DNA from: Adineta ricciae | Taxonomy: Eukaryota; Rotifera; Eurotatoria; Adinetida; Adinetidae | NCBI GenBank assembly: GCA_905250025.1 | Contig: CAJNOJ010000404.1 | Coordinates: 16,983 to 80,982, forward strand | Direction of reading: 5' to 3' | DNA: 64,000 bases | Shown: piece after piece, positions 10,499 to 51,855 of the stretch | Position numbering within the stretch: the stretch's first letter is position 1 | Layout of the letters: each line of letters opens with the position of its first letter | Notes under the pieces: generated by a model | The model's database searches: none | Told to the model about the DNA's origin: nothing | The model's input: the letters and a program-made list of their open reading frames with translations, nothing else | Translations under genes and position numbers: made by a program

Positions 10499-13400
10499 TA
10501 AAGAAATCTCAACGGCGAACACCGTAGCATCATTCCTCGTACAATAAAGAGTCAGTTTCCTATTTTGATGTCCTATATATATATATGTCGATTCTGATCT
10601 GACTACGCACTTCTAGCAAAAGAAAGTGTGATAAAAATGGTTAGGGATTTTAGAATCTCAAAGAAATATTGTGTTGGATTTTGACTGTGAATAATTTGTA
10701 TTTACAGACTATGCTAATGCTGTCCATAGTGTCAGAACGACTACCTTATCGGGATGAAGTTCTGTCTAAAAGTGACAAATAGCCTCATCATAGATTCTAA
10801 GTATGTCGATGTTTCTCTGATGAATACTAATCTAATACAGTCGATTTCATTGGGTAATTTCGATCTTGAGTTTAGAACGAAAATTTTCAAGTATTTGTCA
10901 ATCTATAATCTTTGTTGATCTTTCTCTCTCAATCGATCGAAAACAGATCAGATTAACGAACAAAAGAAGAAATTTGATCGTAAGATTATTCATCTATTTC
11001 TGATAACAAAACGATCTTTGTTGATGACTTGACTTCACAAACATGTCTGTTACTGTTTGACCCTCTACACAAATTCGTATGAAATGCATTGATTAAACTG
11101 AATGAACACTCATCAATTCGAATGTTATTTCGAATAGATTCTTTTCAAACTAATCTGTGAGAACCATCAAATAATATGAAGAAAACAACAACAAAGTGAA
11201 CCTTTGTAATTTTCTTTGCTTTAAGATATTTATTCCAACTTCAACACTTTTCAAGTGAAAAACAAAGAGACATGACCATTCTTTGAAGTTGTAATATTGA
11301 CAAAAACAATGTAATATGATTTGGAGATGTTGTATTTAGTAAATACATAATAACTTGATGTTTTTGAGTTCAAATCATGAAAAAACATCATGTTGATTCT
11401 CACTGTAATTTCATATGGCGTTGGATGATAATATCTACATCCTGTCATCATTTTATGTACATCGTATCATCTTATGAATATGTCAATGAGAGAAGAAAGA
11501 AGATAATTGAGTAGAATCGATATTTGATTTAAATTAAAAATGATTTACATGAAAAATGAAAGAGAAAAGGAAATCACGTAGATTGAATTTTGAAAAGAAT
11601 GTCATTATTTGAAACAAGTTGTCCAATTTGACAACGAATATTGATGATTTGACCTTGACAAGGTGATCGAATGATTAATTCCATTTTCATTGCTTCAAGA
11701 ATAAGAATTGGAGTATCAACATTGACCAATTGGTTTGTTTCGATTAAAATTTTCCAAACATTTCCACAAACATCTGCACGAATCGTTTTTATATTTTCAT
11801 TTTCTTCATCTTCTTCTTCTATTTCTTGTGGAATTTCTGTTGAAATTGTTGTTTGAGTTTGATCTTGTTCATAATTTTTCCAAAGAGAAATTTCTTTGTT
11901 AAAAGCTTCGTCTCTTTTGTGAAGAAATAAATCGATGCTTTGTTTTTCTTTCTGAAGAAATTCATCATATTGATTTAAATCAAAAAAGTTGTCTTCAATG
12001 ATTTTGATTTGTAATTTTCCATGTCGAAAATCTTCTCTTTGAATTTCTAATTGATTTTCATCAACAGGATAAAATCTGATTTGGTCAAAAAATCTGAAAA
12101 GCCAAGGTTTTTGATCTTTGAACATTTGATTTTGACAGAAAGTATTAAAAATAGGTAAAGTTCTTCCAATAAGTTGATAACCACCAGGTGAATCCATTCC
12201 ATAAATACATAAATAAACTCCACCAATGCCAACAGTTCCCTCGGGAGTAAACGTTCTTGCTGGATTATATTTCGAAGTAACTAAACGATGTCTTGGATCA
12301 ATTGGAATTGCACATGGAGCACCAAGATAAACATCACCCAGTCCGAGAATAAGATAAGAAGAATTAAAAACGATTTGTCGAACATCTTCTGTTGATTGAA
12401 GTCCATTAATTCGTTGAATAAAATCAANTAAAGAAATCTCAACGGCGAACACCGTAGCATAATTCCTCGTACAATAAAGAGTCAGTTTCCTATTTTGATG
12501 TCCTATATATATATATTGACTGTGAATAATTTGTATTTACAGACGACGCTAATGCTGTCCATAGTGTCAGAACGACTACCTTATCGGGATGAAATTCTAT
12601 ATAAAAGTGACAAATAGCCTCATCATAGATCCTAGATATGTCGATGTTTCTCTGATGAATACTAATCTAATACAGTCGATTGCATTGGGTAATTTCGATG
12701 TTGAGTTTATAAAACTCGTTGTCATCACGTCAAGAATTCAACAAGAGAAATTCAGATAGACTAAATTATCGACAAAGAAAGTTTGAAAAAAACGAAATAT
12801 TTCAAGTATTTGTCAATCTAATATTTGTTGACCTCTCTCTTTCATTCGATCGAAAACAGATCAGATTAACGAGCAAACGAAGACATTTGATCGTAAGATT
12901 ATTCGTCTATTTCTGACACAACAAAACGATCTTTCTTGATGACTTGACTCGACAAACGTGTCCATTAATGTCTGACTATTTAGCCAAATTCATATGAAAT
13001 GCTTTGATTAAACTGGACACTCATCAATTCGAATGATTTCAACAGAGAAAGAGACATTGTATTTCTTGTTGAAACTTCCACAAATCGATTCATAAAACTA
13101 CAAGTATATGGTTACCTCCACCGATGAACGAGTAAAAATCCACTATAGAACGAAAAGTGTATGACAATTAGAGTTATTTCTGAGCATTCTCAATCAAATG
13201 TTTTTCTTATGTACATATTGATTTGAGGAAGTATACGAGAAATAACATTATTATGATCTCTTCTTAATAAATTCACTTGCAATGCGTTGATTACAATATC
13301 GTTTTGAAAATGTTGGAAAGACTTTCCTGTCTACAATTCATTTATGCGTATCGTTCGAGCGAATATTTAAGAGAATATTTATCCTTTGATAAAAACTCAA

Positions 13401-14668
13401 CAAATCTAACCATTTTTTCGAATAGATTTTTTTTCAAACTAATCTGCGAGAACCATCAAATAATACAAGAAAACAACAACAAAGTAAACTTTTGTAATTT
13501 TCTTTGCTTTAAAATATTCACTCCAACTACAACACCTTCCAAGTGAAAAAAGGCACATCGTCATTCTTTGGAGGTGCCATGTTGACATTGATAAATGTCG
13601 AATCATGAAAAGACATCATGTTGATTCTCACTGTAATCTCATTGAAGGTTTTCCTATTCAATGCATATGACGTTGGATGATAATATCTACATCCTGTCAC
13701 CATGTTATGTACATCGTATCATCTTACGAATATGTCAATGAGAGAAGAAAGAAGATAATTGAGTAGAATCGATATTTAATTTAAATTAAAATGATTTACA
13801 TAAAAAATGAAAGAGAAAAGGAAATCATGTCGATTGAATTTTGAAAAGAATATCATTATTAGAGACAAGTTGTCCAATTTGACAATGAATATTGATGATT
13901 TGACCTTGAAAAGGTGATCGAATGATTAATTCCATTTTCATTGCTTCAAGAATCAGAATTGGAGTATCAACATTGACGAATTGATTTGTTTCGATTAAAA
14001 TTTTCCAAACATTTCCACAAATATCTGCACGAATCGTTTTAATATTTTCATTTTCTTCTTCTATTTCTTGTAGAATTTCTGTTGAAATTGTTGTTTCAAT
14101 TTGATTTTGTTCATAATTTTTCCAAAGAGAAATTTCTTTGTTAAAAGCTTCGTCTCTTTTATGAAGAAATAAATCGATACTTTGTTTTTCTTTTTGAAGA
14201 AATTCATCATATTGATTTAAATAAAAAAAGTTGTCTTCAATGATTTTAATTTGTAATTTTCCATGTCGAAAATCTTCTCTTTGAATTTCTAATTGATTTT
14301 CATCAACAGGATAAAATCGGATTTGGTCAAAAAATCTGAAAAGCCAAGGTTTTTGATCTTTGAACATTTGATTTTGACAGAAAGTGTTGAAAATGGGTAA
14401 AGTTCTTCCAATAAGTTGATAACCACCAGGTGAATCCATTCCATAAATACATAAATAAACTCCACCAATACCAACAGTTCCCTCGGGAGTAAACGTTCTT
14501 GCTGGATTATATTTCGAAGTAACTAAACGATGTCTTGGATCAATTGGAATTGCACATGGAGCACCAAGATAAACATCACCCAGTCCGAGAATAAGATAAG
14601 AAGAATTAAAAACGATTTGTCGAACATCTTCTGTTGATTGAAGTCCATTAATTCGTTGAATAAAATCA
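10499..14668. repeat. Direct repeat of about 1.9-2.2 kb: urea carboxylase 3' end plus flank
   Basis: 10499-12426 and 12428-14668 share the same succession: TAAAGAAATCTCAACGGCG motif, TATATA run, a block beginning TGACTGTGAATAATTTG, an AT-rich flank, then the C-terminal coding region of urea carboxylase on the minus strand. The second copy carries about 300 bp extra near 13.05-13.4 kb. The first copy stops inside the gene exactly at the N at 12427, where the far flank of the second begins. Two haplotype contigs placed in series explain this as well as a true tandem duplication does. The roughly 1-kb flanks hold no supported gene. Confidence 0.8.
11574..12426 (-). pseudogene. Urea carboxylase C-terminal fragment, copy A
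   Basis: About 283 residues remain, covering the end of the carboxyltransferase region ([40 protein letters not shown]) and the biotinyl domain with [10 protein letters not shown], whose Lys is the biotin attachment site. It is truncated at its 5' side by the contig join at 12427; the first residues of the longest ORF there come from the neighbouring contig. The fragment ends with a normal stop, so the 3' end is intact. It cannot act alone, lacking biotin carboxylase. It may be the missing tail of the N-terminal copies at 25.8 or 48.5 kb. Confidence 0.85.
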
Positions 14669-15082
14669 ACATTATTTGGTAAATAAGGCGCATGGTGTCG
14701 AACAGTTTGTTGGTAACGTTGAACAGCGTTGAGTGTTGTTGAATCTTGAAAAGTCAAAGGTAAATAAAGAATTCGTGATTGAATTCGTAAATTTGTTTGA
14801 TTTGAAAATAAATTTTGTTCAATTTCAATTAATTTCTCGATTAAAAGTTGTTGATGAAGAATTTTTCCATCGAAATGAATTTGAAGTGAAGAAACGCCAG
14901 GAGAAATTTCTTGAATTCCTTGGATTTTCTCTTTTTCAAGTTGTTCCATAAGAAAATGAATTCGAAATCGATGATGTAAATCTAAATTCATTGATCCATA
15001 TTCAATGAGAATGTAATGATCACCTGCTTGTCGATAAACAACACGTGGTTGTGTTGATGTTTCTTTGAGTTCTTTGAGAATA
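13825..15082 (-). pseudogene. Urea carboxylase C-terminal fragment, copy B
   Basis: About 418 residues remain, starting at ILKELKETSTQPRVVYR next to the N gap and running through the KipI-like part ([48 protein letters not shown]) to the biotinyl domain ([10 protein letters not shown]). It overlaps by about 75 residues with the C-terminal end of the copy at 25.8-28.4 kb, so the two together would cover a full gene. It differs from copy A by a few substitutions and a small deletion in an acidic linker before the biotinyl domain. 5'-truncated by the gap at 15083-15164. Confidence 0.85.
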
Positions 15083-15182
15083 NNNNNNNNNNNNNNNNNN
15101 NNNNNNNNNNNNNNNNNNNNNNNNNNNNNNNNNNNNNNNNNNNNNNNNNNNNNNNNNNNNNNNNCCCCCCCCCCCCCCCCCC
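15083..15182. other. Assembly gap (82 N) and C homopolymer
   Basis: N run followed by about 18 C. The gene interrupted here (urea carboxylase, copy B) does not continue on the other side. Confidence 0.95.
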
Positions 15183-17808: not shown

Positions 17809-18585
17809 ATGGCGACTGCGATTTTACGACAACGACATGAAAACAATAAACGTGACAAAACCGATGTGGAATTACGTGTTATTGGAGCTGGGTTACCACG
17901 TACGGGAACGTTATCATTGAAAACTGCACTTGAAATTCTCGGTTTTGGTCCTTGTCATCATATGGTTGATTTGATGAGAGAACCTGACCGAATAATTGGA
18001 TTTATTCAAGCATATGATGGTGAAAATGTTGATTTTCGTCAATTGTTGAAAGGTTATCGGTCAACTGTCGATGCACCAACAGTTGATTTCTACAAAGAAA
18101 TTCAACAAGCGTATCCAAACGCAAAAATTATCCTTTCGGTACGAGATAGTAATGAAAAATGGTTCGAAAGTTTCCAAAATACAATTGGTTTAATAACGTG
18201 CAGCCGTTTTTATCGCTTTGCAGTTTATCCTTTACGGTTTTTACGTTTACAAAGTCAAATGGGAGAGAAAACGACTCAAAAATGGATTCGCGATTACGGT
18301 TCAATTGATTCAAAAATGCACGAAAAACATAATCAACGAGTAATCAATGAAAACAAACGAGGCGATGTCCTTGTCTATAATGTTAAAGAAGGATGGGAGC
18401 CTTTATGTCGATTTTTGGAAGTTGACGTACCGGAAAATATTCCTTTTCCTAATGTCAATGACACAAAGGAGTTTCAACGAAGGATAACATTGGCGAAAAT
18501 TCTCGGTTTATGTTTGTGGGCTGGTATTGGTTTTGTTTTTACTGGATTTTCTTATTTCTTTTTAAGAAAAACATATTTGATTTGA
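17809..18585 (+). CDS. Sulfotransferase-family P-loop protein with C-terminal membrane segment
   Basis: The 258-residue product starts MATAILRQRHENNKRDKTD. Near residue 28, VIGAGLPRTGTLSLKTAL is the P-loop-like PAPS-binding motif. It is followed by LEILGFGPCHHMVDL, and by KIILSVRDSNEKWFES, typical of the strand-serine segment of this family (Sulfotransfer_4-like). The C-terminus has a hydrophobic span (ILGLCLWAGIGFVFTGFSYF) that would anchor it to a membrane. The ORF is open 53 codons further upstream, but I chose 17809 because an acceptor-like TATAG lies just before it and the upstream residues are unlike the family. Substrate unknown. Confidence 0.75.
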   Translation: MATAILRQRHENNKRDKTDVELRVIGAGLPRTGTLSLKTALEILGFGPCHHMVDLMREPDRIIGFIQAYDGENVDFRQLLKGYRSTVDAPTVDFYKEIQQAYPNAKIILSVRDSNEKWFESFQNTIGLITCSRFYRFAVYPLRFLRLQSQMGEKTTQKWIRDYGSIDSKMHEKHNQRVINENKRGDVLVYNVKEGWEPLCRFLEVDVPENIPFPNVNDTKEFQRRITLAKILGLCLWAGIGFVFTGFSYFFLRKTYLI

Positions 18586-20213
18586 AAATACTTAACTGAT
18601 CATCTGAATATATATCTCTAATTGAACATCAAATTCAAACTAATGAGAAGCATTAATTTACACGCATATTATGTCTATCACGATCTGCAATAGAGTGATA
18701 TGCCTCTATATAATTTCAAGCAAACCGTAATATGTTGGCTAGGTGAAAATTACAGTGAAACGAGAATCTATTTTGACTTTTATCTACACTTCAACACTCT
18801 TACAGATTGCGTTTTATAAAATTCATATCTAGAGGAATCAATACATTCATGTTCACGTCTATATGATCATCACATTTCACCCAATAATGAATCGCTTAGT
18901 ATTATCGAAATTTTGAAAACGATCCGAAAACTGGCAGATATGACATGATATACGAGATTTATCTCATAAGTCGATAGAAATGTATGTCCATGGAAAATAT
19001 TCCGAGCGAAAGTGTATCCATAAAGCAATTTCACTCGTTTCTTTTTTCCGTATGAAAAATGATACGATCTATTGATTATGTACAGATAGATATAAATATA
19101 TGTTCTTGATATCTCTAAAGATAATTTATTCAGTAGAAAGAAGCGTAGAACGTTTTATACAAGGTTTATCGCCAGAAATCAATGAAGTTAGGTTAAGCTG
19201 CATCTTTTCCCACTCGTTCATGTTGATCACCAGTGTTTTGGAGAAGAACCATGAATTCTTCACAAGCTTTATCCACAACCATAGCCAACAATAAAACTGA
19301 TATAATTCGACCAATCATCGTAATTGGAGTAAGTTATAACGCGTAGAACACAAAATATCCAAATCGAAAATCAAATATGTTTATGATTCGCTTTTCGTCA
19401 AACATTTATATAAGCTACATTTCATTCCTATTCTCTAATTACCATTGACGTTAATAAACATTGCATATAAAATTATACAATCATCCCTCCAAGAATGTCC
19501 CACCCCTTTTTTTTCTTAGAGAAATATCGGATATTTGCACATTGGACCACGTTATATTTACGTCTTTCCCATTCCTACGTGTATGTCATGACTTAGTAAT
19601 CGTGGGATTGTTTTTCTCCTTTGTATTGCTATACAGACAAATATGATAGTATACAAAGATATTTTTGTAGAAGAGATTTAAATCATCATTACACAGGTGA
19701 AATTATACAAAACAAAATCAAACATGTTTATACAATGAAATTATCTTGTAAATTATTCATTGTTCGTATATCTGTTAATGATGCTTTTAATCTTGATTCA
19801 TTTGTCTCCAAATCGGATGAATCCAATGGAAAACATTGGTTTCTACAAATTAACAAATGAATGTGTTGACGATTGGAGTTTTATCGATGACTATGAAGAT
19901 AAATTGCGGATTACAATAATTCTCGTGAACAACGTTGATTAATTGAAATAATTGACAAGATCAAAGATGATTGACTCTTATGAACTTCGATATTATTCCT
20001 GAAAGTTCATCGTGAATATTTGAAAATGAATCGAATCGCAATCTATCAGAGTCAATGTTTATTTATACAAAAAACATCGTCAACCGCGCCATACACTACA
20101 AATAGTAAAGATGATTTTAGCCAATAATTGCGTTTATATAAATAAAAATAGGGAAGTTTCTATTATTCTATTCATATTTGTCTCTTCTAACTAAATGATG
20201 AAATATAAATTGC
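18586..20213. other. Intergenic, nothing recognised
   Basis: Several short ORFs (for example 19100-19294 and 19621-19942) show no domain or splice logic I can support. Confidence 0.5.
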
Positions 20214-21711
20214 TCAGCATAATGGTTTGACATTGCTGGGGAATGTGCCGCCGACATTTCCACCAGGAAAATAATTCCCAACGACGTACATTTTACCTCC
20301 ATCTTGTGATAAAGCTCTGCCAATACCTAATTCAGTCGAACCTTTCCAGATGACTTGTGTAAAATGTCCCGTACTCATTGTAAATCCGGGATTTGTCCAA
20401 TTGTAATATTGAATTTCACTGTACCAAGCTGTAACTGGCACGGAACCTGAACAAAACACACACACAAATAGAAAAGGTGAAAAGTACAATTGTGTGAAAT
20501 AAAGTACCTTTTTGATACAATGGTTTGCCTCCGGATGACGCAAACAGATTTTCTCCCATCCATTGTCCGTTGAATTTCTTACCACTATGCTGAAATATAT
20601 TCCTTGCTGCTAAATCTTCTGCAGTTGCTTGAGCGATATTATTGAGTGATGCATTTAACCTGACAGGACCCACACAATGCATTCGACGATACACATTATG
20701 TTGTTCTAATGCTTGTTGTCGATAAGTTTCGATCGATATTGGTGGATAATCAGGTTTTGGTTCTGAAACATTATAAACGAATAGCGAGAACTTTAAACAG
20801 CAGATGTTTTTTATCCAAATGACTTACTAACACACGATCCACTTGTCCAATCAGCAGCATATCCACTTCCATATTGTGCAGTTTGAGTCCAACAGTATTT
20901 TTGTGTTTCACTGAATACATAACCTAAGCAGGATGGAGTGATATCACATTTCTTCATACAATCTTCAGCTGTGTTCACCCAAAATCCGGTACTCCAATCA
21001 CCATTGTAAAGAGTATTTTTCAACTTTTCTTTGCAGACCTTTTCTTTCGCAGCAGGACCTATTTAGAATCGAAATTAAAACAAGAATTATACATACACCA
21101 CTCTCATGAGACTGTTTGTCCCAATATAGGATATGGTTTTTGCAGAGTACTTACCAATACAAGATCCACCAACATAAGATGCATCGCGCGTTTTCCAGCC
21201 AATGGAATTTTGAACTGAACAAGTCTTTGAACTGGCTTGATATGCCCAGCCATAGCAGTTGTCATCTACCTCACATCGATTCATGCAATCGTCTTGACTC
21301 ACGACGTTATCTATCGACTTTGTAGAGCTACTCGTATAATATGTACCTGGTACAGCCGATGTACATTTTTTCGCGGCAGTATTAGCTCCTATTGTACAAA
21401 GAATATCTCTATGAAATGATGACAAGATTGTTAAGAAATGAGTCGACTCAGATTATATTGAGAAATGCATATGAATAGCAAAGATTCAATTATTTACTTT
21501 CATTGAAATAAAAACGATTACTGTAATTGTCTTCATCATCACTATCGAATCCAATTTTTCGAAGAGATGCCTGTCGAAGGAGGGAACGTAGTAAATCTCG
21601 AGTGTCATCGGCATCATCATCATCATCGATAGCACGTCGAGGATGGTAACGAGCACCATTCGATGCTACTACCACCAATGCAAACACCAGCAGTGCGCAC
21701 AAGGACCGCAT
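20214..21711 (-). CDS. Secreted PAN-PAN-CAP domain protein, five exons
   Basis: Exons on the minus strand are 21711-21498, 21388-21155, 21058-20828, 20762-20508 and 20446-20214. All introns have GT-AG ends and phase 1, giving 388 residues. Exon 1 holds a signal peptide (MRSLCALLVFALVVVASNG) and an Asp-rich linker. Exons 2 and 3 each encode a PAN/apple-like module with regular Cys (QDDCMNRCEVDDNCYGWAYQ; AEDCMKKCDITPSCLGYVF). Exons 4 and 5 encode a CAP/SCP domain: HNVYRRMH, MGENLFASSGG and the CAP signature GHFTQVIWKGSTELGIG. The family's His/Glu tetrad (HN.., GEN, GHF, TELG) appears present. CAP proteins are extracellular; the PAN modules suggest carbohydrate or protein binding. One-module-per-exon structure supports the model. 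Confidence 0.85.
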
Positions 21712-22069
21712 TATTTATAAGATCGATATACTTGGCGAGAGTATTATTGATAGATAAATGGACGAAAAAATGTTGTGCATAACTGTTTCTACATACTTCA
21801 CTATATAAGGATGGGAACTAATCATACAATAATTGGACATACGAGCACTTACCTTTCTCTTTTGGCCTTGATTGACTGGATGAAAGAAAAAAGTGACAGT
21901 ACGAGGGGAAAAACATGATATTAATGAAGGATAGTTTTTGTAGATACCTTTCATTTAATGATTACTGACCTATAGAAAAATATTTTGAATAAAATCTTAC
22001 CATGCACGATAATCACGTGGATACATGTTCGTTTCATCTCGACGCATCCTTCGTTGTGTAGAAGGAAAG
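21712..22069. other. Upstream region of the CAP gene
   Basis: Intergenic. The complement has CTTATAAATA immediately before the CAP ATG, a possible TATA-like element. No other feature seen. Confidence 0.35.
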
Positions 22070-22570
22070 AAAAAACAAAAAAACGGGCATTTGTAAATTA
22101 CGCGAACAGCTCGAAAGAAACGATGGTCTAAATCTGTTTACACAGGCAGATAGAACTCGATGAGTTGTACTCATGAACATATATGTGAAGCTATCACGAA
22201 AAAATAACGAATTGCAAATAACTTTATACATAAATAAGTCTTATCGTTAAAGTGACTTCATTCGATGTCATTTGATCATAAGGTTTTGTATGAGTTTTCG
22301 TTTTCTTATGCTAATTTCATACTGATCTCTAAACACAAGTGTCGCCATTTCATGTAGAATCAAATTCTGCATCGGATGAATTCATTTCTATCTTGTGTAT
22401 AAAGTTATTCGCAATTGTTCATTTTTTTCCTGCTAGTTTCACATAGATGTTCGTGAATACAATTCATCGAGTTCTGTCTGCCTGTGTAAATAGATTTAAG
22501 TCATCTTTCTGTTCGAAGTGTTCACATTTTGTAGAAATACCTGTCTTGAAAAAGCTGCGCTGATTTTTTT
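22070..22570. repeat. Fold-back (MITE-like) element, second copy
   Basis: Same element as at 2990-3363 and more complete. Arms at about 22080-22215 and 22415-22560 are imperfect reverse complements (CTAAATCTGTTTACACAGGC against CCTGTGTAAATAGATTTAAG). The central about 200 bp is partly absent from the first copy. Non-coding. Confidence 0.75.
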
Positions 22571-24200
22571 ATTTTTTGTGAAAATAACAATATTAAATGT
22601 ATGAATAAAAAAAACAATAAATCATTAGTTTTTATGATTCTAAAAAAGAATAGTTCGTCGGATTCGAAGAAAAATTTTCCAAAATTCTGTTCGAAATTTG
22701 ACTGATACCAATGTGTATAAATAAAAGGAGGCCTATTTAAAAGAAAAAAAATGTGATTATGTTATTAAAAATGCCCATAGACTTCTCTATTTTAAGTGTA
22801 ACATTATGAATATGATACTCTTATATGTAAAAGTGCTTTTATGCAAAACTAATTTATAAACAAACCGTTTCAACTTACGGCACAATGAGTATAAAGTAAA
22901 TATGATGCCAAATAGACGAAAAAGCTATCAATAGCTATTCGGTCTATACTCTTTTTATATGTTTGTGTTATATATGAATACATTGTATAAATTGTATTTG
23001 GACAGTTAAATATAATAAAAGATAGAACTTGAATTAAATTTATTCGAATTAATTGACGATTTTTATTTGATAGTTGTGCAAATCGATGATTTATGATATT
23101 TCTTTCAACAATTTCAATTGGACGAACTATTTGTTGACGTCTATCAATTGCTCGTTTGTAGATAATTCGATATAAAATCAGAGTTACAAATACCATGACT
23201 ATAATTATTGGTATTATTGTTAAACATATATTTGAAATGAGATAAAATGTTGAATAAAATCCATCTGATGATGCAACACAACCATTTGATTCTTGACGAA
23301 AACCAATTGGTGTATTAATATAAAATATAATCCACAATGGTGTAGTAATTAATATTATTTGTTGAGTTCGATGTGGATTACTTAGAAGACGAATTTGAGC
23401 ATTTAACGAAATAATCATCCATCGATCAATTGAAATCAAACATAAATAATAACGAGATAAAAAAATTCCAAGAGTTAAAAAATATATACGAAATTTACAA
23501 AAAAATAATGATGAATGAGTTAAATCAAATCCACTAAATGTTATGATTATTCGAACAAGACAACCAAAACATAAAACAATTAAATGAACAAATGACATAC
23601 TTACAAAATATAATGAACAACCTTTATTTTTCAATTGACTTTTATAAAAAACAATTATATTTGCTATATTACCAAATATACCAAAAACAAACACGGGAAT
23701 TAGACAATATCCATTCATATATCCTGATAATTCTCGAATTTGACTTGCTAATGTCGACATTAATACACGAATATTTTCTTAAAAGATATTTTTAAAGAAA
23801 CTAATCTCTTCCTATGAACTCTATAAGATATTGTCGTTTTTTTAATTAGATTTTTTATTACTACATTCTGTAGCTCCTTGGAGCAGAGCTATCAGGATTC
23901 ATAGCTGTTTTATTCATACAATCATGAGTGGTAATGGAAAGAAAAGTAGTAGTGATGATATGAAAATAGAATAGAAATGAAAGAAATTAAATTTATTTAG
24001 TAACTTTGAAATGTTATTCATGACAGTTCGAAAAGAAAGCATCACGATGTTCATATAGATTGTCACCATGAGATAACATCAATATTCCTAAGCGTGTCGG
24101 ATAAAGAATTTTTATTTAGTTTTAGTAGAATAATTAAGTTGTACTGAAATCCAAATAACATTTATCTATCAATTAAATATGATAGATATTACGTAGTGTG
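22127..24200. repeat. Inverted large repeat, arm 2 (partner 1356-3363)
   Basis: Reverse-complement match to the first arm, including about 430 bp upstream of the GPCR and the element downstream. Beyond about 24200 the two diverge abruptly: arm 1 continues into the transposase unit, arm 2 into unrelated AT-rich sequence. Confidence 0.75.
22640..23760 (-). CDS. Rhodopsin-like G-protein-coupled receptor, intact copy
   Basis: Exon 1 (23760-22879, 294 codons) and exon 2 (22732-22640, 30 codons plus TAG) join in phase 0 across a GTAAGT...AAATAG intron, giving 324 residues. Seven hydrophobic segments follow an NYLT-less short N-terminus: TM1 CLIPVFVFGIFGNIANIIVF, TM2 with LYFVSMSFVHLIVL, TM3 ending SIDRW (variant DRY), Cys in ESNGCVAS of loop 2 as expected for the conserved disulfide, TM6 with FNCPNT, and TM7 across the intron (YTHCA then ASFYLYTLVSVKF). 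The third intracellular loop is basic. Probably a peptide-type receptor of a family expanded in rotifers; ligand unknown. The copy at 1.8 kb is the same gene with a frameshift. Confidence 0.85.
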
Positions 24201-25089: not shown

Positions 25090-25320
25090 TAAATCTCACA
25101 CGATGATCTCATGAATCTGCTAGGAAAATGTTTCCAGCACTGTCGAAACTCAGAGACCACGATACAGCCAATTTATTGGTTGTGGAACCAAATATAATCG
25201 AACAGCCAGCTATCCATCGAAGGTCGTTTGTGCTTGAACTGACAATTCGATCGTTATCAGCATCCATCATATTTAGGACAATCCAAAAGTGGTGAGAGAG
25301 GTACATTATCGCATTAAGCA
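25090..25320 (-). pseudogene. NHL-repeat protein fragment
   Basis: The reverse strand reads MDADNDRIVSSSTNDLRWIA and later LSFDSAGNIFLADS, then TGA, then DHRVRF in the same frame. This is the N-x-R-(I/V)...D.AGN(I/L)(F/Y)(V/L)AD...HR(V/I) rhythm of NHL beta-propeller repeats. The stop inside the final repeat and the absence of further repeats indicate a remnant. Bdelloid genomes carry many such proteins. Confidence 0.5.
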
Positions 25321-25827
25321 GAAGTCTAGAAAATTTTCTTTTCTTTTAATCTCATTAGATAGTTTGCCTCTCTCTAATTTTCTACGCTATTTGGTAAGTT
25401 CTTGCCTTCGAATTAATTCTGTTGGACTTCCATGATGTATTAGTTGACTTTATGGTATACAGAGCCAACTCAATCGATGTTGACTCAAATTTCGATGCTG
25501 CTGATGCTGATCGAGAAGTTTCATTCTTGAAAATCTAAAACTTTTAAATCGTTTACTACGTAGTCATACGCACAGAGTATTTGTTAGTATTCAATCTATG
25601 TACAAACTCTTACAAAAAGAACACAATATTCAGAAGATCTTTGTGAACTAAATATCTTACCCAGGAATTTCTTGGCGGATCTTAGGAATAATCAAGTGGC
25701 TTTTGATGATGATCATCTTTCAATAATGATCCTCTCGCTGGTAGCATTGGCTGTGACAAATTCTTGGAACGACGACAAGCTTTAAATAATACGATTTTCA
25801 TTATGAATAAAGAACTTCTATTGGGAC
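25321..25827. other. Spacer between NHL remnant and truncated urea carboxylase
   Basis: No supported gene. The sequence directly joins the urea carboxylase frame at about 25834 without any N, so the junction is part of a contiguous assembly. Confidence 0.5.
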
Positions 25828-28428
25828 TTATTCATGAAGAATTTTTCCATCGAAATGAATTTGAAGTGAAGAAACGCCAGGAGAAATTTCTTGAATTCCT
25901 TGGATTTTCTCTTTCTCAAGTTGTTCCATAAGGAAATGAATTCGAAATCGATGATGTAAATCTAAATTCATTGATCCATATTCAATGAGAATGTAATGAT
26001 CACCTGCTTGTCGATAAACAACACGTGGTTGTGTTGATGTTTCTTTGAGTTCTTTGAGAATACACTGAAATGATTGTAAAGACGGAGGAGGAGAAGGAGC
26101 AGGGGAAGATAAAGTAGAAATGAAATGATTTTGTTGTTTTTCTAAAGTTAAAGCTTGATCAAATGAAATTGAATAAAATTGAATTTGATCATTTGGTTTT
26201 AATTGACCAATTTTCCAAAGATCTGCTTGAATAATTGTAAATGGACAAACAAAACCACCTAAACTTGGTCCATCTTGAGTTAAAATGACAGGTGAATCAC
26301 CAGTAAAATTGATACTTCCAATAGCATATTGACAATCATGAATATTTGAAGGATGAAGACCTGCATCACCACCTGATTGTCGTGTCCAAATTGGTTTTGG
26401 TCCAATTAAACGAATTCCCAACCGATTCGAATTATGATGAACTTTCCATGTTGATTGAAGAAATTCGTGAATAAATTCCGAAGAAAAGAAATCAGGTGAA
26501 CCATGTGGGCCATGAAGAACAGCAATTGACCATTTTTCTTGCTTTTGTCTATTGGGATAAACAGGAATGAATTCCATGGGCAAATTCAATGGAATTTCAT
26601 TGGAAATCGGTGAATTGAGAAAAAGAAAATCACCTGATTGTAAAATTCGACCAGCAAATCCACCAAATTGCCCAAGAACAAATGTTGATTGACTACCGAG
26701 ATATGAAGGAACATCGAAACCACCTCGAACGGCCAAATATGTTCGACAACCATCGATAAGTTTTCCAAATTCTAAAATTTGTCCTTTTTCAACAAAGATT
26801 TGTTTCCAAAGTGGAATTGATTTGTTATCAAGAGTAATTTTCATCGTTGCACCTGTAATTGCAATTGTTGTTGATTGATGAAAACGAATTTGAGGACCAT
26901 GAAGAGTAATTTCAAGTGCAGAAGTCGTTTCTTTATTTCCAATTAAACGATTTGCAATTCGAAAAGCAAAATGATCCATTGGACCTGATGGAGGAATTCC
27001 CACATTCCAAAATCCAATTCGACCTGGATAATCTTGAATTGTTGTAAATGTTCCACTTTGAAGAATTTCAATTCCTTTTGGTTCATAATGAAATACTTTG
27101 GTTAAAAACTGAAGCGAAAGATTTTGTTCATTAAGAAAGAAATTCGATGAAATTAATTGACGAAGAAAATGTAAATTTGTTTCAATTCCATAAAGATGAA
27201 TTTGTTGAAGAACAAAAGAAAGTTTTTCAATTGTTTCTTGTCGATTTTGTCCATGAACAATAATTTTTGCCAATAACGAATCATAAAATGAACAAATTTC
27301 AATTCCATTACAAATCCACGTATCAATTCGAATATTTTTTGTTGTTTGAGGAAATTTAATTTCATAAATTTTTCCTGTCGAAGGACAAAAATCATTTAAA
27401 GGATTTTCTGAACAAAGTCGAACTTCAATTGCACAACCAATTGGTTTTGGAAAATCTTTTAATTGTTCAATTTGTTCATTAGATGATAATTTGATCATCC
27501 ATTCAACTAAATCAATTCCATAAATCATTTCTGTTATTGGATGTTCAACTTGTAATCGACAATTAACTTCAAGAAAATAAAATTTCTTTGATTTTTCATC
27601 TAAAATGAATTCAACTGTTCCAACTGATCGATATTTCACAAGTGACGCAAGTTGAACAGCTGCATTACTCATTGCACATCGAATTTCATCAGAAAGATTT
27701 GTTGCAGGTGATTCTTCAACTATTTTTTGATTTCTTCTTTGTAAAGAACAATCACGTTCAACAAATGAACGAACAAAACCTTTTCCATCACCAAAGATTT
27801 GAATTTCAATATGTCGACCATGTTCAACATATTTTTCCACATAAAGACCATCATTTTGTAAATATTTTTGTGCTGATCGTTGAACTGTTTCATAAACATT
27901 TTCTAAATCTTTTTCATTCCAACATTGACACATTCCTTTACCACCTGAACCTGCTGTACTTTTTAACATTATAGGATATTCAATACGTAAAGCTTGTCGT
28001 TTTGCATCTTCAATATCATTTAAAAGTTCACTTCGAGGTAAAACTGGAATTTTTGCTTCACAAGCCAATTCATATGAAATGTGTTTTAAACCAAATTGAT
28101 AAATTTGTTCACTTGTTGGTCCAATAAAACAAATTCCTTCTTTTTCACATTGACGAGCAAATTCAGCATTTTCAGATAAAAATCCATAACCAGGAAAGAT
28201 TCCATCGACTTTCTCTTCTTTTGCTATGTCAATTATTAATTGACTTTGTAAATAAATTTCACTTGATGGAAATCCTTTTAATTCAATTGATCGATCAGCG
28301 ACACGAACATGAACAGAATTTCGATCAGCTTCTGAATAAATTGCAACACTTTCAATGCCCATTCGACGTAATGTTCGAGCCACTCGAACGGCTATTTCAC
28401 CACGATTAGCGATCAGAACTGATTTCAT
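25828..28428 (-). pseudogene. Urea carboxylase, 3'-truncated (biotin carboxylase plus part of carboxyltransferase)
   Basis: From ATG at 28428 (MKSVLIANRGEIAVRVARTL) the frame gives about 866 residues. Domains are biotin carboxylase (residues about 1-445; Gly-rich ATP-grasp loop GSGGKGM, EVNCRLQVEHPITE), KipA-like (GIEILQSGTFTTIQDYPGRI, GPPSGPMDHFAF-like; about 470-760), and the start of KipI-like (ILKELKETSTQPRVVYR to SLQIHFDGKILH). The remaining KipI part and the biotin-carrying domain are missing: homology to copy B ends at about 25834 and two codons later the frame stops. The enzyme makes allophanate from urea, ATP and bicarbonate, and needs biotin on the missing domain, so this copy should be inactive alone. 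No introns. Divergent from allophanate hydrolase. Confidence 0.85.
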
Positions 28429-29068
28429 TTGCAAATCTTTCTTTAAAAAGAAAAAAAAACCAAAGAATTTCTTAAATTATTTGACAAATCTTTTCTTTTA
28501 TAAGTGAAGACAGTGTGACATGTCTGTGTGATTTAAACGAATGTTATCTTATCTAAAGTTACATATAAATAGACCAAAAAAAGAATCAGTTATCATCAAA
28601 AGAATGTCACCTGGTCGAAATAAACTCAAATAAATGTCATTTTATTTTAAGAATAAAAGAAATATTTTGAATTTATTTAATCTATCAGAATTTCCTTTTT
28701 ATATTTAAGATAAATATTTTGGACTTTCATCTTAAATCTTTCGTTTCTTTTATCGAACAAAGATCATTTGTGTATAACATGTAAAGAATGTTCATTTTAA
28801 AAGTCCAAATTTCGATTTGAAATCAACTGAATAGTTTTATCTCATACGAATGATCATATTGACACCGCGTGATCATCATTCGATATCGAAAGAATTCTTT
28901 ATTCTCTTTCTTTTTTCTTTCTATTTGATGATAAAAGTACATCATGTTTGTTTATCTATGAAAAGACTTATTATCTTGTAAAAGTACATTTGACATTCAA
29001 ATCTAAAAAGAAATATAAAATATCGTCTCTATTGACTTTAAATTTTATCTACAAGATTCAAATTCTCA
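28429..29068. promoter_or_regulatory. Shared divergent intergenic region between urea carboxylase and allophanate hydrolase
   Basis: About 640 bp, AT-rich, with both genes reading outward. Its partner (49738-50419) aligns over most of its length, including GATCATATTGACACCGCGTG and GTGTATAACATGT stretches that look conserved. Co-regulation of the two enzymes is an inference from the head-to-head layout. No specific operator was identified. Confidence 0.45.
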
Positions 29069-30948
29069 ATGCCAACGATTGGTGAACTTCATGAAGTTTA
29101 TTCGAATAATCCAAATGGTCTTTTGCAGACGATCAATTCAATTTATGATCGAATTGAAAAAGAAGGTTTAAAACCCATTTGGATTTCAATTGTTCCACGA
29201 GAAAAAGTTTTAAAACGAGTTGAAGAATTGTTATCAATTTCTCAAGATGATCGTGATGCTTATCCATTATTTGGAATTCCATTTGCAGTGAAAGATAATA
29301 TTGATGTAATTGATTTGAAGACAACAGCAGCATGTTCATCATTTGCTGATGAAAAAGCAACGAAAAGTGCATTTGTTGTTTGTAAACTTGAAGAAGCAGG
29401 TGCAATTGTAATCGGAAAAACCAATATGGATCAATTTGCAACAGGTTTAGTCGGAATTCGTTCGCCATTTGGAATTTGTTCGAGTGTTTTTCATAAAAAT
29501 TTCATCTCAGGTGGTTCAAGTTCAGGTTCAGCAGTTAGCGTTGGTAATGGTTTAGTAAGTAAAAGAATCAAAGTGAAGAATTGTAAAGAAAAACCCAAGA
29601 TATTTTGAAGGTGACATTTGCATTGGGAACAGATACAGCTGGATCAGGTCGAGTTCCAGCAATGTTCAATAATGTTATTGGAATGAAACCAACACGTGGT
29701 TTATTAAGTTGTTCCGGTGTTGTTCCAGCATGTCGAAGTGTTGATTGTGTTTCAATTTTTGCTGAAACATGTAAAGATGCATCAATAATCTTGTCAGTTG
29801 CTCATGGCTATGATGAAAATGATCCATATTCTCGTCAATTATCATTTTGTTCATCACCATGGATTATTTCATCGAAATTTCGTTGTGGTGTTCCAACAAA
29901 ATCAACTCGTCAATTCTTTGGTGATACAGAAAATGGTGAATTATTTGAAAAAGTAATTAAAACTGTGGAAACTGAATTGAATGGGGAAATCATTGAATTT
30001 GATTTGACTTCATTTGTGAAAGTTGCCAATTTGCTTTATAAAGGACCTTGGGTTGCTGAACGTTATGCTTCTGTTGGTAAATTTATTGATGAACATCAAT
30101 CTGATATTGATCCAACTGTTTTCTCAATTATTTCCAAATCGAAATCTTATTCTGCAGTTGATGTTTTCAATTCGATGTATGAAATTGAAAAATTGAAGAA
30201 AGAAACAAAAGAATTGTGGAAGAATTTTGATGTGATGTTAGTTCCAACTGCACCTCGAACTTTTACAATTGATCAAATTCAACAATCACCAATTGAACTC
30301 AATACTCAACTCGGCTTTTATACAAATTTTGTAAATTTACTTGATTTAACAGCAATTGCATTACCTGCTGGTCTTCGTCAAGATCATTTACCTTTTGGTG
30401 TGACTTTTATTTCTCATTCGTTTACTGATCAAGCACTTCTTCTTCTTGCTGATCGACTTCATCGTTGTCTTTCAACATTTATTGGTTGTTCAACTACACA
30501 TCTTTTATCTAATACACAAAAATTATCAATGAAAGAAAACGATGAACAATGGAATTGTTTTCTCATTGGTGTTGTTGGTGCTCATCTCTCCGATTTACCA
30601 TTGAATTATCAACTCATCGAAAGAAATGCAAGATTTGTTCGCAAATGTCGAACTCATCAAGAATATCGTCTTTATGCACTTTCAAATACGAATCCGTGTA
30701 AGCCGGGATTGATTCGAGTCAATGGAAGTCAAGGATCAGGAATTGAAATCGAAATTTGGGCAATTCCAAATGAATATTTGGCAAGTTTTGTCAATTTAAT
30801 TTCATCACCACTTACGATTGGAAATATTCTTCTTGATGATGGACAATCGGTGAAAGGTTTTCTTGTAGAATCATCTGGTATCGAGACGGCAAAAGATATC
30901 ACTCATTTCGGAGGATGGAAAGCTTATCTTAACGCTTCAGAAGGATAA
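29069..30948 (+). CDS. Allophanate hydrolase (amidase-signature family), copy 1
   Basis: Hydrolyses allophanate to ammonia and CO2, the second step of urea amidolyase. Exon 1 (29069-29554) and exon 2 (29611-30948) join in phase 0 across a 56-bp GTAAGT...TTGAAG intron, giving 607 residues, the usual length for the stand-alone enzyme. The amidase triad is visible with standard spacing: Lys75 in AVKDNID, Ser150 in GGSSSGS, nucleophile Ser174 in GTDTAGSGR. The intron lies between the two Ser. The C-terminal domain (about 450-607; [30 protein letters not shown]) matches the family's accessory domain. Head-to-head with urea carboxylase; in fungi both are one protein. Not a metazoan family, so horizontal acquisition followed by intron gain is likely. 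Confidence 0.9.
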
Positions 30949-31202: not shown

Positions 31203-32241
31203 TCACGCTTTATTTTCTTCATCTTTTTTTCTTCCAACTTCGAGAAGCATATTCGTGATACCATAATTGATAACTTCATCGATATCTTCGTCGTCTTTGA
31301 CAATAATAATTCCAGCATAATCAATTCCACCAATAGGTACTTTCGATCCATTCTTCAAAATGAACGTATCTTTTGTTCTCGGAATGACATGTAAATAATT
31401 CTTTGTCATCACCACATTATACGACGTTTTCAATGGATTGAATTCTTTTCCTTCTTTGAAACTGAACATCTCATCTAAAAGTTGAATAAATTGATTCATC
31501 AGATATTCCGCTAAGTGATCAATTTGTTCCGGCGGACGAATAGAAATGACAAAATGTGCCCAAGGCACTTGACTGATTTGACAAGCCTGAGAATAATTCT
31601 GTTCTTCTTGGAGGAAAAAATCGATTGGTGGATCGTTTTGTAAAACTGGAAAGAATTGAATATGTTTGTGTTTCTGACTTGCACCGGAATCTTCACCACA
31701 ATTGAAAAACACGAGCAATTTTGTTGTTCTATAATTTCGAATGATTTGATAACATAAGGATAGTTCATCAGCTGATAACGGATCGGACTGATTGGCGAAT
31801 TCTTAGGAGAAAAAAAAAATGCAAAAATCGACCCATCAAAGATTCCATCGACATACCATGAGGAGCAACGAGAAATTGATTTTTCGTCGAAGGAAATTTA
31901 TTGAGTACCACAGCATAGGTTGTCTCATTCGATCCATAATTCGGAATGTCACAAACGTGAACACATTTATCGTAAGGAGGAGCAAATGGATCTTTGTCAG
32001 TTTTGTCTACATCTCCTTTCAATGGTTTTTGTTTATGACTAAGAACAGATCGTAGGTGATACTAAATAAGATGAAAGTCGATGTTTTTAAGTAAACTTCG
32101 ACGAAAAAGTTATACCGGACAGCCATCAACTGAATGTTCGATAGTTTTTCCAAGTTCAAGAACGACATCACCTGTTTTCACTGCGTTTTCAAACGTGTCT
32201 GAAACGAGATTATCGATGTTTGTCAACGGATTCGATGCCAT
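31203..32241 (-). CDS. Ap4A phosphorylase / ATP adenylyltransferase, copy 1
   Basis: Three exons on the minus strand: 32241-32116, 32061-31857 and 31801-31203, with GT-AG introns of 54-55 bp. The product is 309 residues, close to the roughly 320 of fungal Apa1/Apa2. It starts MASNPLTNIDNLVSDTFENA. Exon 2 has KDPFAPPYDKCVHVCDIPNY and NKFPSTKNQFLVAPH. Exon 3 has NCGEDSGASQKHKHIQFFPV, the G-A-S-Q-x-H-x-H-x-Q core of the HIT-like family. It cleaves diadenosine tetraphosphate with phosphate to ATP and ADP. The family is typical of fungi, protists and bacteria and unusual in animals; introns show it is a resident eukaryotic gene. Confidence 0.85.
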
Positions 32242-34330: not shown

Positions 34331-34861
34331 TGGATTTATTCAATATTATGCTGTACTTCAAGATTCGAAAGTGAATTTATTGTCAATGATTTCGATTTTT
34401 GATAGATTTCATCTTTTAGAACTATTCGGTGATTTTGTTTACTTTAACGACTTTTCGTACGATATTTGATAGTCGGTAAGATTAATGTTAATTAGTATTT
34501 GATTCGTCAGCAGAGTTTCGTCGATAAAAAAATCTGTTGTTCATCTGGAACGAACTCGACTTCTTTATATTGTATTTTTATCGCAATTCTCGCGAAAAAA
34601 GTCGATTTTGTTTCTTCCAAACAATTCTTTTCTCTCAACCCTCGCTTATTCTGTTCTCTATTTCCATTCTTTTGGACCCTCGATAAACACACCATAATAA
34701 ACTTTTCTCTCGTTTTGTCATATCTCAAAGTGCGCATAGGACAACATCTCGAGAACATTCTTTTAAATAAACGTACGTGAAAAGTAAAATAGCAGTGTCA
34801 GCGAGTACTAAACAAACCTGATAAGCATATGGTTCTTTCCACTTCATCAAAGATTTTCCTG
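34331..34861. other. DHFR upstream region
   Basis: No supported gene; the ORF at 34499-34780 shows no recognisable domain. Conserved in part with 55.0-55.48 kb. Confidence 0.4.
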
Positions 34862-35467
34862 ATGGATCGATTTCTGAATATTATGATGGCGATGGATGCC
34901 AAGAATGGAATGGGAATCAATAATACATTGCCATGGAAATTAAACGAAGATGAACGATGGTTTTTGAGCATATCAACAACGACGAAAGATCCGTTAAAAC
35001 GAAATGCTGTAATTATTGGTCGATTGACCTACGAATCATTTTGCAAATATTTAACGAAAAGTTTTGTTCATTGGCATTTTATTGTGATAACCTCGAATTC
35101 TTTAGAATCGATCAAAGCGAATTATGAGCAAAGTCATCTCGATGCTGTCAGATCGTTTGACGAAGCTGTTCGAATGGCACGTGGATTTCTTGACGATCCA
35201 GAGAAAGGTATTGAATCCGTGTTTGTGCTCGGGGGTGTCCAACCGTACGAACAAGCTATGGCTTCGGATCTGGTTCATCGTATCTATTTAACAAGAATCT
35301 TTGCTGAATATTCATGTGATACGTATTGGTCAAACTTAAATTTGAGCCAATTTCGACGAATTCAACGATCGAAAGATGAGATTCTTGCAGAGCTCGATGA
35401 TCAAATTATAGAAGAAAATGGTGTTACTTATCAATTTCAAGTTTATGAATTTGATGGGAAACAATAA
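34862..35467 (+). CDS. Dihydrofolate reductase, copy 1
   Basis: Reduces dihydrofolate to tetrahydrofolate with NADPH. The 201-residue product from MDRFLNIMMAMDAKNGMGIN has NGMGINNTLPWKLNEDE (substrate and cofactor loop, with the LPW motif), STTTKDPLKRNAVIIGRLTY (the TTT...N.VI.G..T block of animal enzymes), VITSNS and SVFVLGGVQPYEQAM (the GG cofactor motif). The usual length for animal DHFR is about 190. The longer upstream start at 34829 adds residues unlike the family, so I use 34862; copy 2 supports the same Met. Single exon. Confidence 0.9.
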   Translation: MDRFLNIMMAMDAKNGMGINNTLPWKLNEDERWFLSISTTTKDPLKRNAVIIGRLTYESFCKYLTKSFVHWHFIVITSNSLESIKANYEQSHLDAVRSFDEAVRMARGFLDDPEKGIESVFVLGGVQPYEQAMASDLVHRIYLTRIFAEYSCDTYWSNLNLSQFRRIQRSKDEILAELDDQIIEENGVTYQFQVYEFDGKQ

Positions 35468-48510: not shown

Positions 48511-48525
48511 NNNNNNNNNNNNNNN

Positions 48526-49737
48526 AGAAAGTTTTTCAATTGTTTCTTGTCGATTTTGTCCATGAACAATAATTTTTGCCAATAACGAATCATAAAATGA
48601 ACAAATTTCAATTCCATTACAAATCCACGTATCAATTCGAATATCTTCGGTTGTTTGAGGAAATTCAATTTCATAAATCTTTCCTGTCGAAGGACAAAAA
48701 TCATTTAAAGGATTTTCTGAACAAAGTCGAACTTCAATTGCACAACCAATTGGTTTTGGAAAATCTTCTAATTGTTCAATTCGTTCATTATGTGATAATT
48801 TGATCATCCATTCGACTAAATCGATTCCATAAATCATTTCTGTTACTGGATGTTCAACTTGTAATCGACAATTGACTTCAAGAAAATAAAATTTCTTCGA
48901 TTTTTCATCCAAAATGAATTCAACTGTTCCAACTGATCGATATTTCACAAGTGAGGCAAGTTGAACAGCTGCATTGCTCATTGCACATCGAATTTCATCG
49001 GAAAGATTTGCTGCAGGTGTTTCTTCAACTATTTTTTGATTTCTTCGTTGTAAAGAACAATCACGTTCAGCAAATGAACGAACAAAACCTTTTCCATCAC
49101 CAAAGATTTGAATTTCAATATGTCGACCATATTCAACATATTTCTCCACATAAAGACCATCATTTTGTAAATATTTTTGTGCTGATCGTTGAACTGTTTC
49201 ATAAACATTTTCTAAATCTTCTTCATTCCAACATCGACACATTCCTTTGCCACCTGAACCTGCTGTACTTTTCAACATTACAGGATATTCAATACGTAAA
49301 GCTTGTCGTTTTGCATCTTCAATATCATTTAAAAGTTCACTTCGAGGTAAAACTGGAATCTTTGCTTCACAAGCCAATTCATATGAAATGTGTTTTAAAC
49401 CAAATTGATAAATTTGTTCACTTGTTGGTCCAATGAAACAAATTCCTTCTTTTTCACATTGACGAGCAAATTCGGCATTTTCAGATAAAAATCCATAACC
49501 AGGAAAGATTCCATCGACTTTCTCTTGTTTTGCTATTTCAATTATTAATTGACTTTGTAAATAAACTTCACTTGATGGAAATCCTTTTAATTCAACTGAC
49601 CGATCAGCGACACGAACATGAACAGAATTTCGATCAGCTTCTGAATAAATTGCAACACTTTCAATGTCCATTCGACGTAATGTTCGAGCCACTCGAACGA
49701 CTATTTCACCACGATTGGCGATCAGAACTGATTTCAT
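48526..49737 (-). CDS. Urea carboxylase, biotin carboxylase part, copy 2 (cut by gap)
   Basis: From ATG at 49737 (MKSVLIANRGEIVVRVARTL) about 404 residues of the biotin carboxylase domain are open, with GSGGKGM and EVNCRLQVEHPVTE. They stop at the N run at the equivalent of position 27.2 kb in copy 1. The truncation is therefore an assembly limit, and the true gene may be complete. Relative to copy 1 there are occasional substitutions (for example HNERIEQLED against SNEQIEQLKD). No in-frame stop. Confidence 0.85.
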
Positions 49738-50419: not shown

Positions 50420-51855
50420 ATGCCAACGATCGGTGAACTCCATGAGGTTTATTCGAATGATCCAAATGGTCTTTCGCAGACGATCAATTCGATTTATGAC
50501 CGAATTGAAAATGAAGGTTTAAAACCTATTTGGATTTCGATTGTTCCACGAGAAAAAGCTTTGCAACGAGTTGAAGAATTATTATCAATTTGTCAAGATG
50601 ATCGCGGTGCCTATCCATTATTTGGAATTCCATTTGCAGTCAAAGATAATATTGATGTAATTGATTTGAAGACAACAGCGGCATGTTCATCATTTGCTGA
50701 TGAGAAAGCAACAAAAAGTGCATTTGTTGTTTGTAAACTTGAAGAAGCAGGTGCAATTGTGATTGGAAAAACCAATATGGATCAATTTGCAACAGGTTTA
50801 GTTGGAACTCGTTCACCATTTGGAATTTGTTCAAGTGTTTTTGATAAAAATTTCATCTCAGGCGGTTCAAGTTCAGGTTCAGCAGTTAGTGTTGGTAATG
50901 GTTTAGTAAGTAAAAGAAAAAAAGTAAAGAATTGTAAAGAAAAACCAAGATATTTTGAAGGTGACATTTGCATTGGGAACAGATACAGCTGGATCAGGTC
51001 GAGTTCCAGCAATGTTCAATAATGTTATTGGAATGAAACCAACACGTGGTTTATTAAGTTGTTCCGGTGTTGTTCCAGCATGTCGAAGTGTTGATTGTGT
51101 TTCAATTTTTGCTGAAACATGTAAAGATGCATCAATAATNGATGTTAGTTCCAACTGCACCTCGAACGTTTACAATTGATCAAATTCAACAATCGCCAAT
51201 TGAACATAATACTCAACTCGGCTTTTATACAAATTTTGTAAATTTACTTGATTTAACAGCAATTGCATTACCTGCTGGTCTTCGTCAAGATCATTTACCT
51301 TTTGGTGTCACTTTTATTTCTCATTCTTTCACTGATCAAGCACTTCTTCTTCTTGCTGATCGACTTCATCGTTGTCTTTCAACATTTATTGGTTATTCAA
51401 CTACACATCTGTTATCTAATACACAAAAATTATCAATGAAAGAAAATGATGAACAATGGAATTGTTTTCTCATTGGTGTTGTTGGTGCTCATCTCTCCGA
51501 TTTACCATTGAATTATCAACTCATCGAAAGAAATGCAAGATTCGTTCGCAAATGTCGAACTCATCAAGAATATCGTCTTTATGCACTTTCAAATACGAAT
51601 CCGTGTAAACCGGGATTGATTCGAGTCACTGGAAGTCGAGGACCGGGAATTGAAATCGAAATTTGGGCAATTCCAAATGAACATTTGGCAAGTTTTGTCA
51701 ATTTAATTCCATCACCACTTACGATTGGAAATATTCTTCTTGATGATGGGCAATCGGTGAAAGGTTTTCTTGTAGAACCATCTGGTACCGAGACGGCAAA
51801 AGATATCACTCAGTTTGGAGGATGGAAAGCTTATCTTAACGCTTCAGAAGGATAA
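50420..51855 (+). CDS. Allophanate hydrolase, copy 2, with internal assembly gap
   Basis: Same exon structure as copy 1 (exon 1 to 50905, 55-bp intron, exon 2 from 50961). The catalytic Lys, cis-Ser and nucleophile Ser blocks are present ([23 protein letters not shown]). At the N at 51140 about 440 bp of coding sequence found in copy 1 (equivalent to about 29790-30233) is missing and the frame changes. Because the break coincides with an N, it is most likely collapsed assembly and not mutation. The C-terminal domain is intact to the stop. A TTG six bases upstream of the ATG is not needed. Confidence 0.85.

Follow-up and report, generated by a model that had tools for sequence, protein, structure and literature searches.

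The 64,000 nucleotides of Adineta ricciae DNA analysed here (contig CAJNOJ010000404.1, positions 16,983 to 80,982; this whole stretch is called the window, and the scaffold C404) hold two adjacent genes of probable microbial origin that together would break urea down to ammonia. A urea carboxylase (UC) gene lies on the minus strand, the open reading frame (ORF) reported for it covering an N-terminal part (UC-N), and an allophanate hydrolase (AH) gene lies on the plus strand. The two stand head to head with 640 bp between their ATG codons, at 28428 on the minus strand (the start of the UC, rather than the TTG) and at 29069 on the plus strand. An earlier reading by a model that saw the letters alone (the sequence-only reading) had described two unfused, divergent genes with an intergenic region between them, and this arrangement was confirmed. 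The divergent pair could share a regulatory region. The features of the locus are as follows.

25828..28428, minus strand: UC-N, the N-terminal 866 amino acids of the urea carboxylase (biotin carboxylase, CT_A_B and the start of CT_C_D), ending GKILHE-stop
26308-26310, minus strand: codon of N707 of UC
28429..29068, no strand: divergent intergenic region, 640 bp, putative promoter
29069..29554, plus strand: AH exon 1, with Lys75 and GGSSSGS from residue 148
29555..29610, plus strand: AH intron, 56 bp (GTAAGT...AAG)
29611..30948, plus strand: AH exon 2, with Ser174 and the C-terminal AH_C domain

The AH gene is complete, encoding 607 amino acids after splicing of 29069-29554 to 29611-30948 across its single GT-AG intron. 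The spliced protein scores 747 bits against TIGR02713 (AtzF; cut-off 511) and carries the Amidase-signature and C-terminal AH_C domains together with K75 and S174, which places it among the allophanate hydrolases; the catalytic roles of the Lys and Ser residues are those that we take to hold across the amidase-signature family. The intron falls between the GGSSSGS region and Ser174, bearing out the earlier statement that it separates catalytic residues. A second AH copy (AH') in the window has a 55-bp intron at the identical place.

50420..51139, plus strand: AH' exon 1, intron (50906-50960) and the first part of exon 2, broken off at the 1-N gap at 51140
51141..51855, plus strand: AH' exon 2, 3' part; the counterpart of 29790-30233 in the first copy, about 444 bp, is missing at the gap

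A deletion in the second copy was considered and not accepted, the missing stretch coinciding precisely with the single N of the gap at 51140. A search of the genome (130.5 Mb, 1033 contigs) for AH returned 23 matches at E <= 0.001. Five of these are the two C404 copies, and the other 18 score at most 125 bits and were read as general amidases, so that no AH was found beyond C404 at this threshold. Next to AH lies a gene for an Ap4A phosphorylase-type protein (ATP_transf and Ap4A_phos_N; 31206-31802, minus strand), possibly also acquired.

Animal genome context

One protein encoded in the genome combines, in frame, an N6_N4 DNA methyltransferase with a chromodomain, and its match to DNA cytosine-N4 methyltransferases of solved structure reaches 424 bits. 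This architecture, N4CMT, is reported for bdelloid rotifers (PMC8885841) and identifies the genome as that of a bdelloid. A putative bdelloid spliced-leader sequence had no exact match in the genome, and a 17-base part of it had none in the window at up to two mismatches; both results count for little, as the sequence used may be wrong.

The flanking genes encode rhodopsin-type G-protein-coupled receptors (GPCRs), trypsins, a caspase domain, a CAP domain and a Tc5-type transposase. It is hardly conceivable that the pair represents bacterial contamination of the assembly. The closest sampled proteins are largely bacterial, which could raise the suspicion; however, a rhodopsin-type GPCR and trypsins share the gapless contig 15165-48510 with UC-N and AH, the AH intron is conserved in both copies, and the GC content of UC (0.32) and AH (0.34) equals that of the window (0.33). 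It is well supported that the pair resides in eukaryotic bdelloid DNA, and on the relatives sampled from prokaryote genomes, plasmids and PDB it was probably acquired horizontally.

The urea carboxylase and its missing end

The reported UC ORF covers positions 2-863 of the 1201 of TIGR02712 (urea carboxylase, EC 6.3.4.6) and scores 1230 bits, below the cut-off of 1303.85. Only positions 3-58 of the 202 of CT_C_D are present and the biotin carrier domain is wholly absent, so that the ORF lacks the full domain set of biotin carboxylase, CT_A_B, CT_C_D and biotin carrier. Biotin-dependent carboxylation being what it is, UC-N alone could not be a working urea carboxylase. The sequence-only reading had taken the module as complete; at 25828-28428 it is not, and a complete UC emerges only when contigs are joined.

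A UC-model search of the genome, which scored the best candidates only and thus gives lower bounds on the number of pieces, found at least three further UC pieces within the window, all on the minus strand.

11577..12427, minus strand: UC-C', second UC C-terminus (profile 926-1200), broken off at the 1-N gap at 12428
13828..15082, minus strand: UC-C, the C-terminal end that UC-N lacks (CT_C_D and biotin domain, profile 786-1200), its 5' side cut by an N gap
13936-13938, minus strand: biotin Lys codon in UC-C
14848..15082, minus strand: 235-bp stretch shared with 25828-26062 (98.3%), of which 229 bp have 2 silent differences before divergence
15083..15164, no strand: scaffold gap of 82 N beside UC-C
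48526..49737, minus strand: UC-N', second UC N-terminus, 404 codons (profile 2-403), cut by a 15-N gap at 48511-48525

UC-C is separated from UC-N by 10.7 kb and the 82-N gap, on the same strand. Past the 229-bp overlap UC-N runs into a stop, while UC-C goes on in frame with UC sequence and takes up the Kluyveromyces lactis alignment at the point where UC-N ends. Joined at the overlap, the two give 1207 amino acids that score 1692.5 bits over positions 2-1200 of TIGR02712 and contain the whole domain set, although the join crosses contigs. A hidden 3' exon beyond 25828 was rejected: none was seen by eye in three frames down to 23.7 kb, the UC-model search gave no match in that stretch, and the ORF at 25112-25345 contained no domain. 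It is likely that a complete unfused UC exists in at least one haplotype.

The two N-terminal and two C-terminal pieces fit two homologous copies of one complete gene. Synonymous divergence (dS) and the ratio of nonsynonymous to synonymous divergence (dN/dS) are 0.077 and 0.29 for the UC-N pair (404 codons), 0.107 and 0.13 for the UC-C pair (280 codons), 0.229 and 0.11 for AH exon 1 (162 codons), and 0.083 and 0.22 for the 3' part of AH exon 2 (237 codons). The AH comparison covers these two parts, with the short 5' part of exon 2 left out, and neither contains a stop. Both UC halves and AH, each present twice, are under purifying selection. The mean KS reported for A. ricciae is 0.135 between homologous copies and 1.27 between ohnologs (PMC5916493), so the dS range of 0.077-0.229 fits bdelloid homologous copies. 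The earlier claim of horizontal acquisition and domestication is supported by the animal genome, the conserved intron, the host-like GC content, the two copies with dN/dS of 0.11-0.29 and the microbial nearest sampled relatives.

The structure of the scaffold bears on how the UC came to be split. It contains seven N runs, all within the window (3689, 8383, 10093, 12428, 15083-15164, 48511-48525 and 51140), and the boundary of a repeated copy touches the gap at six of them, all but 3689. On contig C220 homologous copies likewise stand in tandem with 1-N gaps. A tandem duplication of the locus was therefore rejected as the default. Across three scaffolds with 15 N gaps, seven gaps (six distinct overlaps) have one side that shares 209-235 bp, nearly identical, with a sequence elsewhere, a recurrence that makes overlaps of this size an assembly signature. 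It has been described for bdelloid assemblies that breaks spanning scaffold Ns may be scaffolding errors (Nowell et al. 2018, PMC5916493). The locus also carries a warning: placed end to end at N gaps, the homologous copies of a scaffolded bdelloid assembly can pass for tandem duplications, deletions and split genes. A 224-bp direct repeat (98.7%; 8159-8382 and 8384-8607) exactly flanks a 1-N gap and resembles an unmerged contig overlap.

Taken together, the locus probably represents a urea-degradation pathway of two enzymes that the bdelloid acquired horizontally and that is integrated into a chromosome, with a UC stub that arises from interleaved contigs: the genome would hold two homologous copies of each gene, and the contigs of both would be interleaved at the N gaps, leaving the reported UC ORF as a stub. 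Several observations weigh against this. No single gapless stretch encodes a whole UC, and with two differences between them the overlapping UC pieces perhaps belong to different haplotypes. Moreover, the end of the stub at 25828 falls inside the gapless 33-kb contig 15165-48510, which makes a real break in one haplotype possible. Other UC copies are damaged: C220 (G000:C220:104840-112206; loci L030 and L031) carries two degenerate ones that resemble each other at about 95% in DNA and the window UC at about 55% identity in protein, both with stops and without residues ~302-583, and a 225-bp UC piece at the end of contig C641 (L032, 8192-8416), 99.6% identical to 26155-26379 of the window, lies between a 1-N gap and a C-rich tract that is presumably telomere-like. 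UC copies may thus break in this genome. Finally, contig C42 matches the urease alpha N-terminal domain in two short stretches (G000:C42:291583-291851; 46 and 38 bits), which, weak as they are, could reflect a redundant urease. The 19 kb examined around the C220 copies contained no AH, nor any flanking gene common to the C404 and C220 UC copies.

To the left of the stub, two pairs of stretches are homologous in inverted orientation (89-94%): window 15267-22134, in the left part of the contig that contains the stub, matches C404:169-7086, at the scaffold's left end, and window 1359-3204 matches 22366-24195. They suggest a haplotype that carries an inversion or else an inverted copy that was scaffolded wrongly. 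With 25828 inside a gapless contig whose left part is matched by an inverted homologue, the two sides of 25827/25828 were either misjoined or brought together by a real rearrangement in one haplotype; beside a haplotype with a complete UC there may be another in which it is truly broken at 25828.

A more severe possibility is that the UC is a pseudogene in every haplotype and AH survives alone, serving another source of allophanate. The UC-N stop within a gapless contig, the stops and lost residues of both C220 copies and the joining of the C641 fragment to unrelated sequence would agree with it. It is nevertheless unlikely, given the dN/dS of the UC-C pair, the biotin Lys intact in both of its copies and the in-frame overlap of UC-N with UC-C. 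It has also to be asked whether the UC consists of two polypeptides, biotin carboxylase with CT_A_B and CT_C_D with the biotin domain, that assemble in trans. The halves are complementary and lie on one scaffold, but such an assembly is extremely unlikely: CT_C_D itself is interrupted by the break, UC-C extends right up to the 82-N gap, 229 bp of coding sequence are common to both halves, and N gaps truncate the second UC copies at different positions. Two homologous copies with interleaved contigs, with a UC that is complete in at least one haplotype, remain the preferred explanation.

Predicted substrate and origin

The alignment position that we take to distinguish urea from guanidine carboxylases corresponds to N1330 of KlUA, the K. 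lactis protein, and the window UC has an Asn there (N707, in INFTGD), as urea-type enzymes do. An Asn or an Asp at this residue separates the two activities, and many bacterial proteins called urea carboxylases favour guanidine (PMC12186494). Among 36 distinct bacterial UC sequences, limited to matches whose surrounding locus was fetched, 13 have Asn and 23 have Asp; two repeats of the same loci were not counted, and 10 of 12 loci from one search were left out by a length and score filter. Gene context agrees with this split in three annotated loci, which supports the position chosen: urtABCD stands alongside the Asn-type UC of Pantoea, and UAAP1/UAAP2 alongside the Asp-type UCs of Asticcacaulis and Cupriavidus. 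From N707, and from the match between the split and gene context, the predicted substrate of the window UC is urea rather than guanidine.

Relatives were sought in prokaryote genomes, plasmids and PDB, with one yeast representing the eukaryotes, and both window proteins form long branches of unusual composition in the trees. The nearest sampled relatives are bacterial for AH and bacterial and yeast for UC, so the phylogenetic check proposed along with the sequence-only reading, within this coverage, returned microbial relatives. In the UC tree (38 sequences) the Asn side takes in the window UC, on a long branch, and 14 others, among them yeast (100/100). The best tree sets it beside yeast without support (48/67), and other placements were not rejected: on the Asp side (p 0.47), with a Niveispirillum-like pair (p 0.17) or with a UC1-like set plus yeast (p 0.12). 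The UC thus probably belongs to the urea-type side, and its donor could be either bacterial or fungal.

That the carboxylase acts on guanidine instead is very improbable. The preference of many bacterial homologs for guanidine (PMC12186494), the clustering of the partner AH with AHs linked to guanidine-type UCs and the unrejected placement on the Asp side would favour it; against it stand the Asn at the switch residue and the best tree, which keeps the window UC apart from all 23 Asp-type sequences (100/100).

In the AH tree (23 sequences) the window AH groups with Asp-type-UC-linked, rhizobial, Pseudomonas and Granulibacter AHs (nine sequences, 99/98). A position beside the yeast AH was rejected (p 0.016), as were positions within three sets of Asn-type-UC-linked AHs (p 0.007, 0.008 and 0.005), these sets having been named after the tree was seen; a position just outside its own clade was not rejected (p 0.163). 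A bacterial origin of AH is supported by these comparisons. The discordance between the two trees is not claimed as proof of two donors, since AH may fall outside its clade and the alternative UC placements stand; UC and AH could come from either one donor or two.

Under a tentative and rather doubtful extension, the pair is a mosaic that arose within the rotifer lineage: its urea-type UC would come from one microbe and its AH from another, bacterial lineage, one with links to the degradation of guanidine and cyanuric acid, both having entered one unstable region and there become a co-regulated pair in head-to-head order. If true, an animal would have made a functional catabolic pair out of genes gained in two independent transfers. 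The pair offers a test case for whether bdelloids build pathways from separate gene transfers.

Proposed pathway and comparison with known systems

To our knowledge, animals as a rule are unable to use urea nitrogen. The mechanism predicted here, ATP- and biotin-dependent carboxylation followed by hydrolysis, would follow from the protein families and their residues. The unfused UC (1207 amino acids as joined), biotinylated on Lys1171 by a host ligase, would carboxylate urea to allophanate with ATP and bicarbonate, and AH (607 amino acids) would hydrolyse allophanate to ammonia and CO2, allowing nitrogen salvage. A functional pair would let the bdelloid recover urea nitrogen, as a second animal lineage beside whiteflies.

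UC and AH genes in an animal are not new. The whitefly Bemisia tabaci likewise has UC and AH activities of bacterial origin in an animal genome, and 5 of its 10 acquired genes contain GT-AG introns (PMC4607527); UC has also been reported in Hydra (PMC3073912). The term 'non-animal' in the sequence-only reading was thus too strong. The whitefly differs in that DUR1,2 alone carries both activities, with an AH gene apart from it, their assigned sources being Enterobacteriales and Bacteroidetes (PMC4607527), whereas the rotifer genes are two unfused, divergent neighbours. No report of UC or AH in bdelloids turned up among the titles and abstract openings listed, and the main texts of three bdelloid genome and gene-transfer papers (PMC3499245, PMC4632278 and PMC5916493), leaving their supplements aside, contain no urea-, allophanate-, amidolyase- or urease- words.

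Among bacteria, the atzF-uca loci on plasmids of Pantoea and Niveispirillum resemble the rotifer pair in having the same two enzymes, unfused and adjacent, with Asn at the switch; UC-N (866 amino acids) is 50% identical to the Pantoea and 52% to the Niveispirillum protein. However, in all 13 Asn-type loci UC follows directly 3' of AH, both genes being on one strand, and the AHs of Pantoea and Niveispirillum are not the closest to that of the window. For the Asp-type UCs, an AH is in view in 4 of 23 cases, 3' of UC and on the same strand, with none in the stretch examined for the other 19. Since AH and UC share a strand in the bacterial loci seen, the head-to-head order of the rotifer differs from both.

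Fungal DUR1,2 (K. lactis KlUA, 3va7/5i8i) shares the UC domain order, 48.7% identity over the N-terminal part and the Asn at the switch. It differs as a fused AH-UC protein, a fusion that is absent from the divergent rotifer genes, and its AH is only 38.7% identical to the window AH. Unfused eukaryotic UCs are also known from green algae, in three of four of which an amidase gene lies near UC, from fungi with a short UC, and from Hydra (PMC3073912). Compared here by description only, these differ from the rotifer UC in being acquired from another bacterial UC group (UC2) in the model of that paper (PMC3073912).

Further observations concern the rest of the window. A Sulfotransferase_4 family protein is encoded at 17641-18582 (plus strand), a dihydrofolate reductase domain at 34793-35464 (plus strand) and pieces of a Tc5-type transposase at 296-988 (plus strand). 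At 5685-6238, ORFs on both strands overlie a tandem array of units of about 78 bp that are 78-88% alike. The motif GGGTGTGGGTG, which we take to be telomere-like, occurs at 3883-3893 (plus strand) and 16245-16255 (minus strand), two matches against 0.13 expected.

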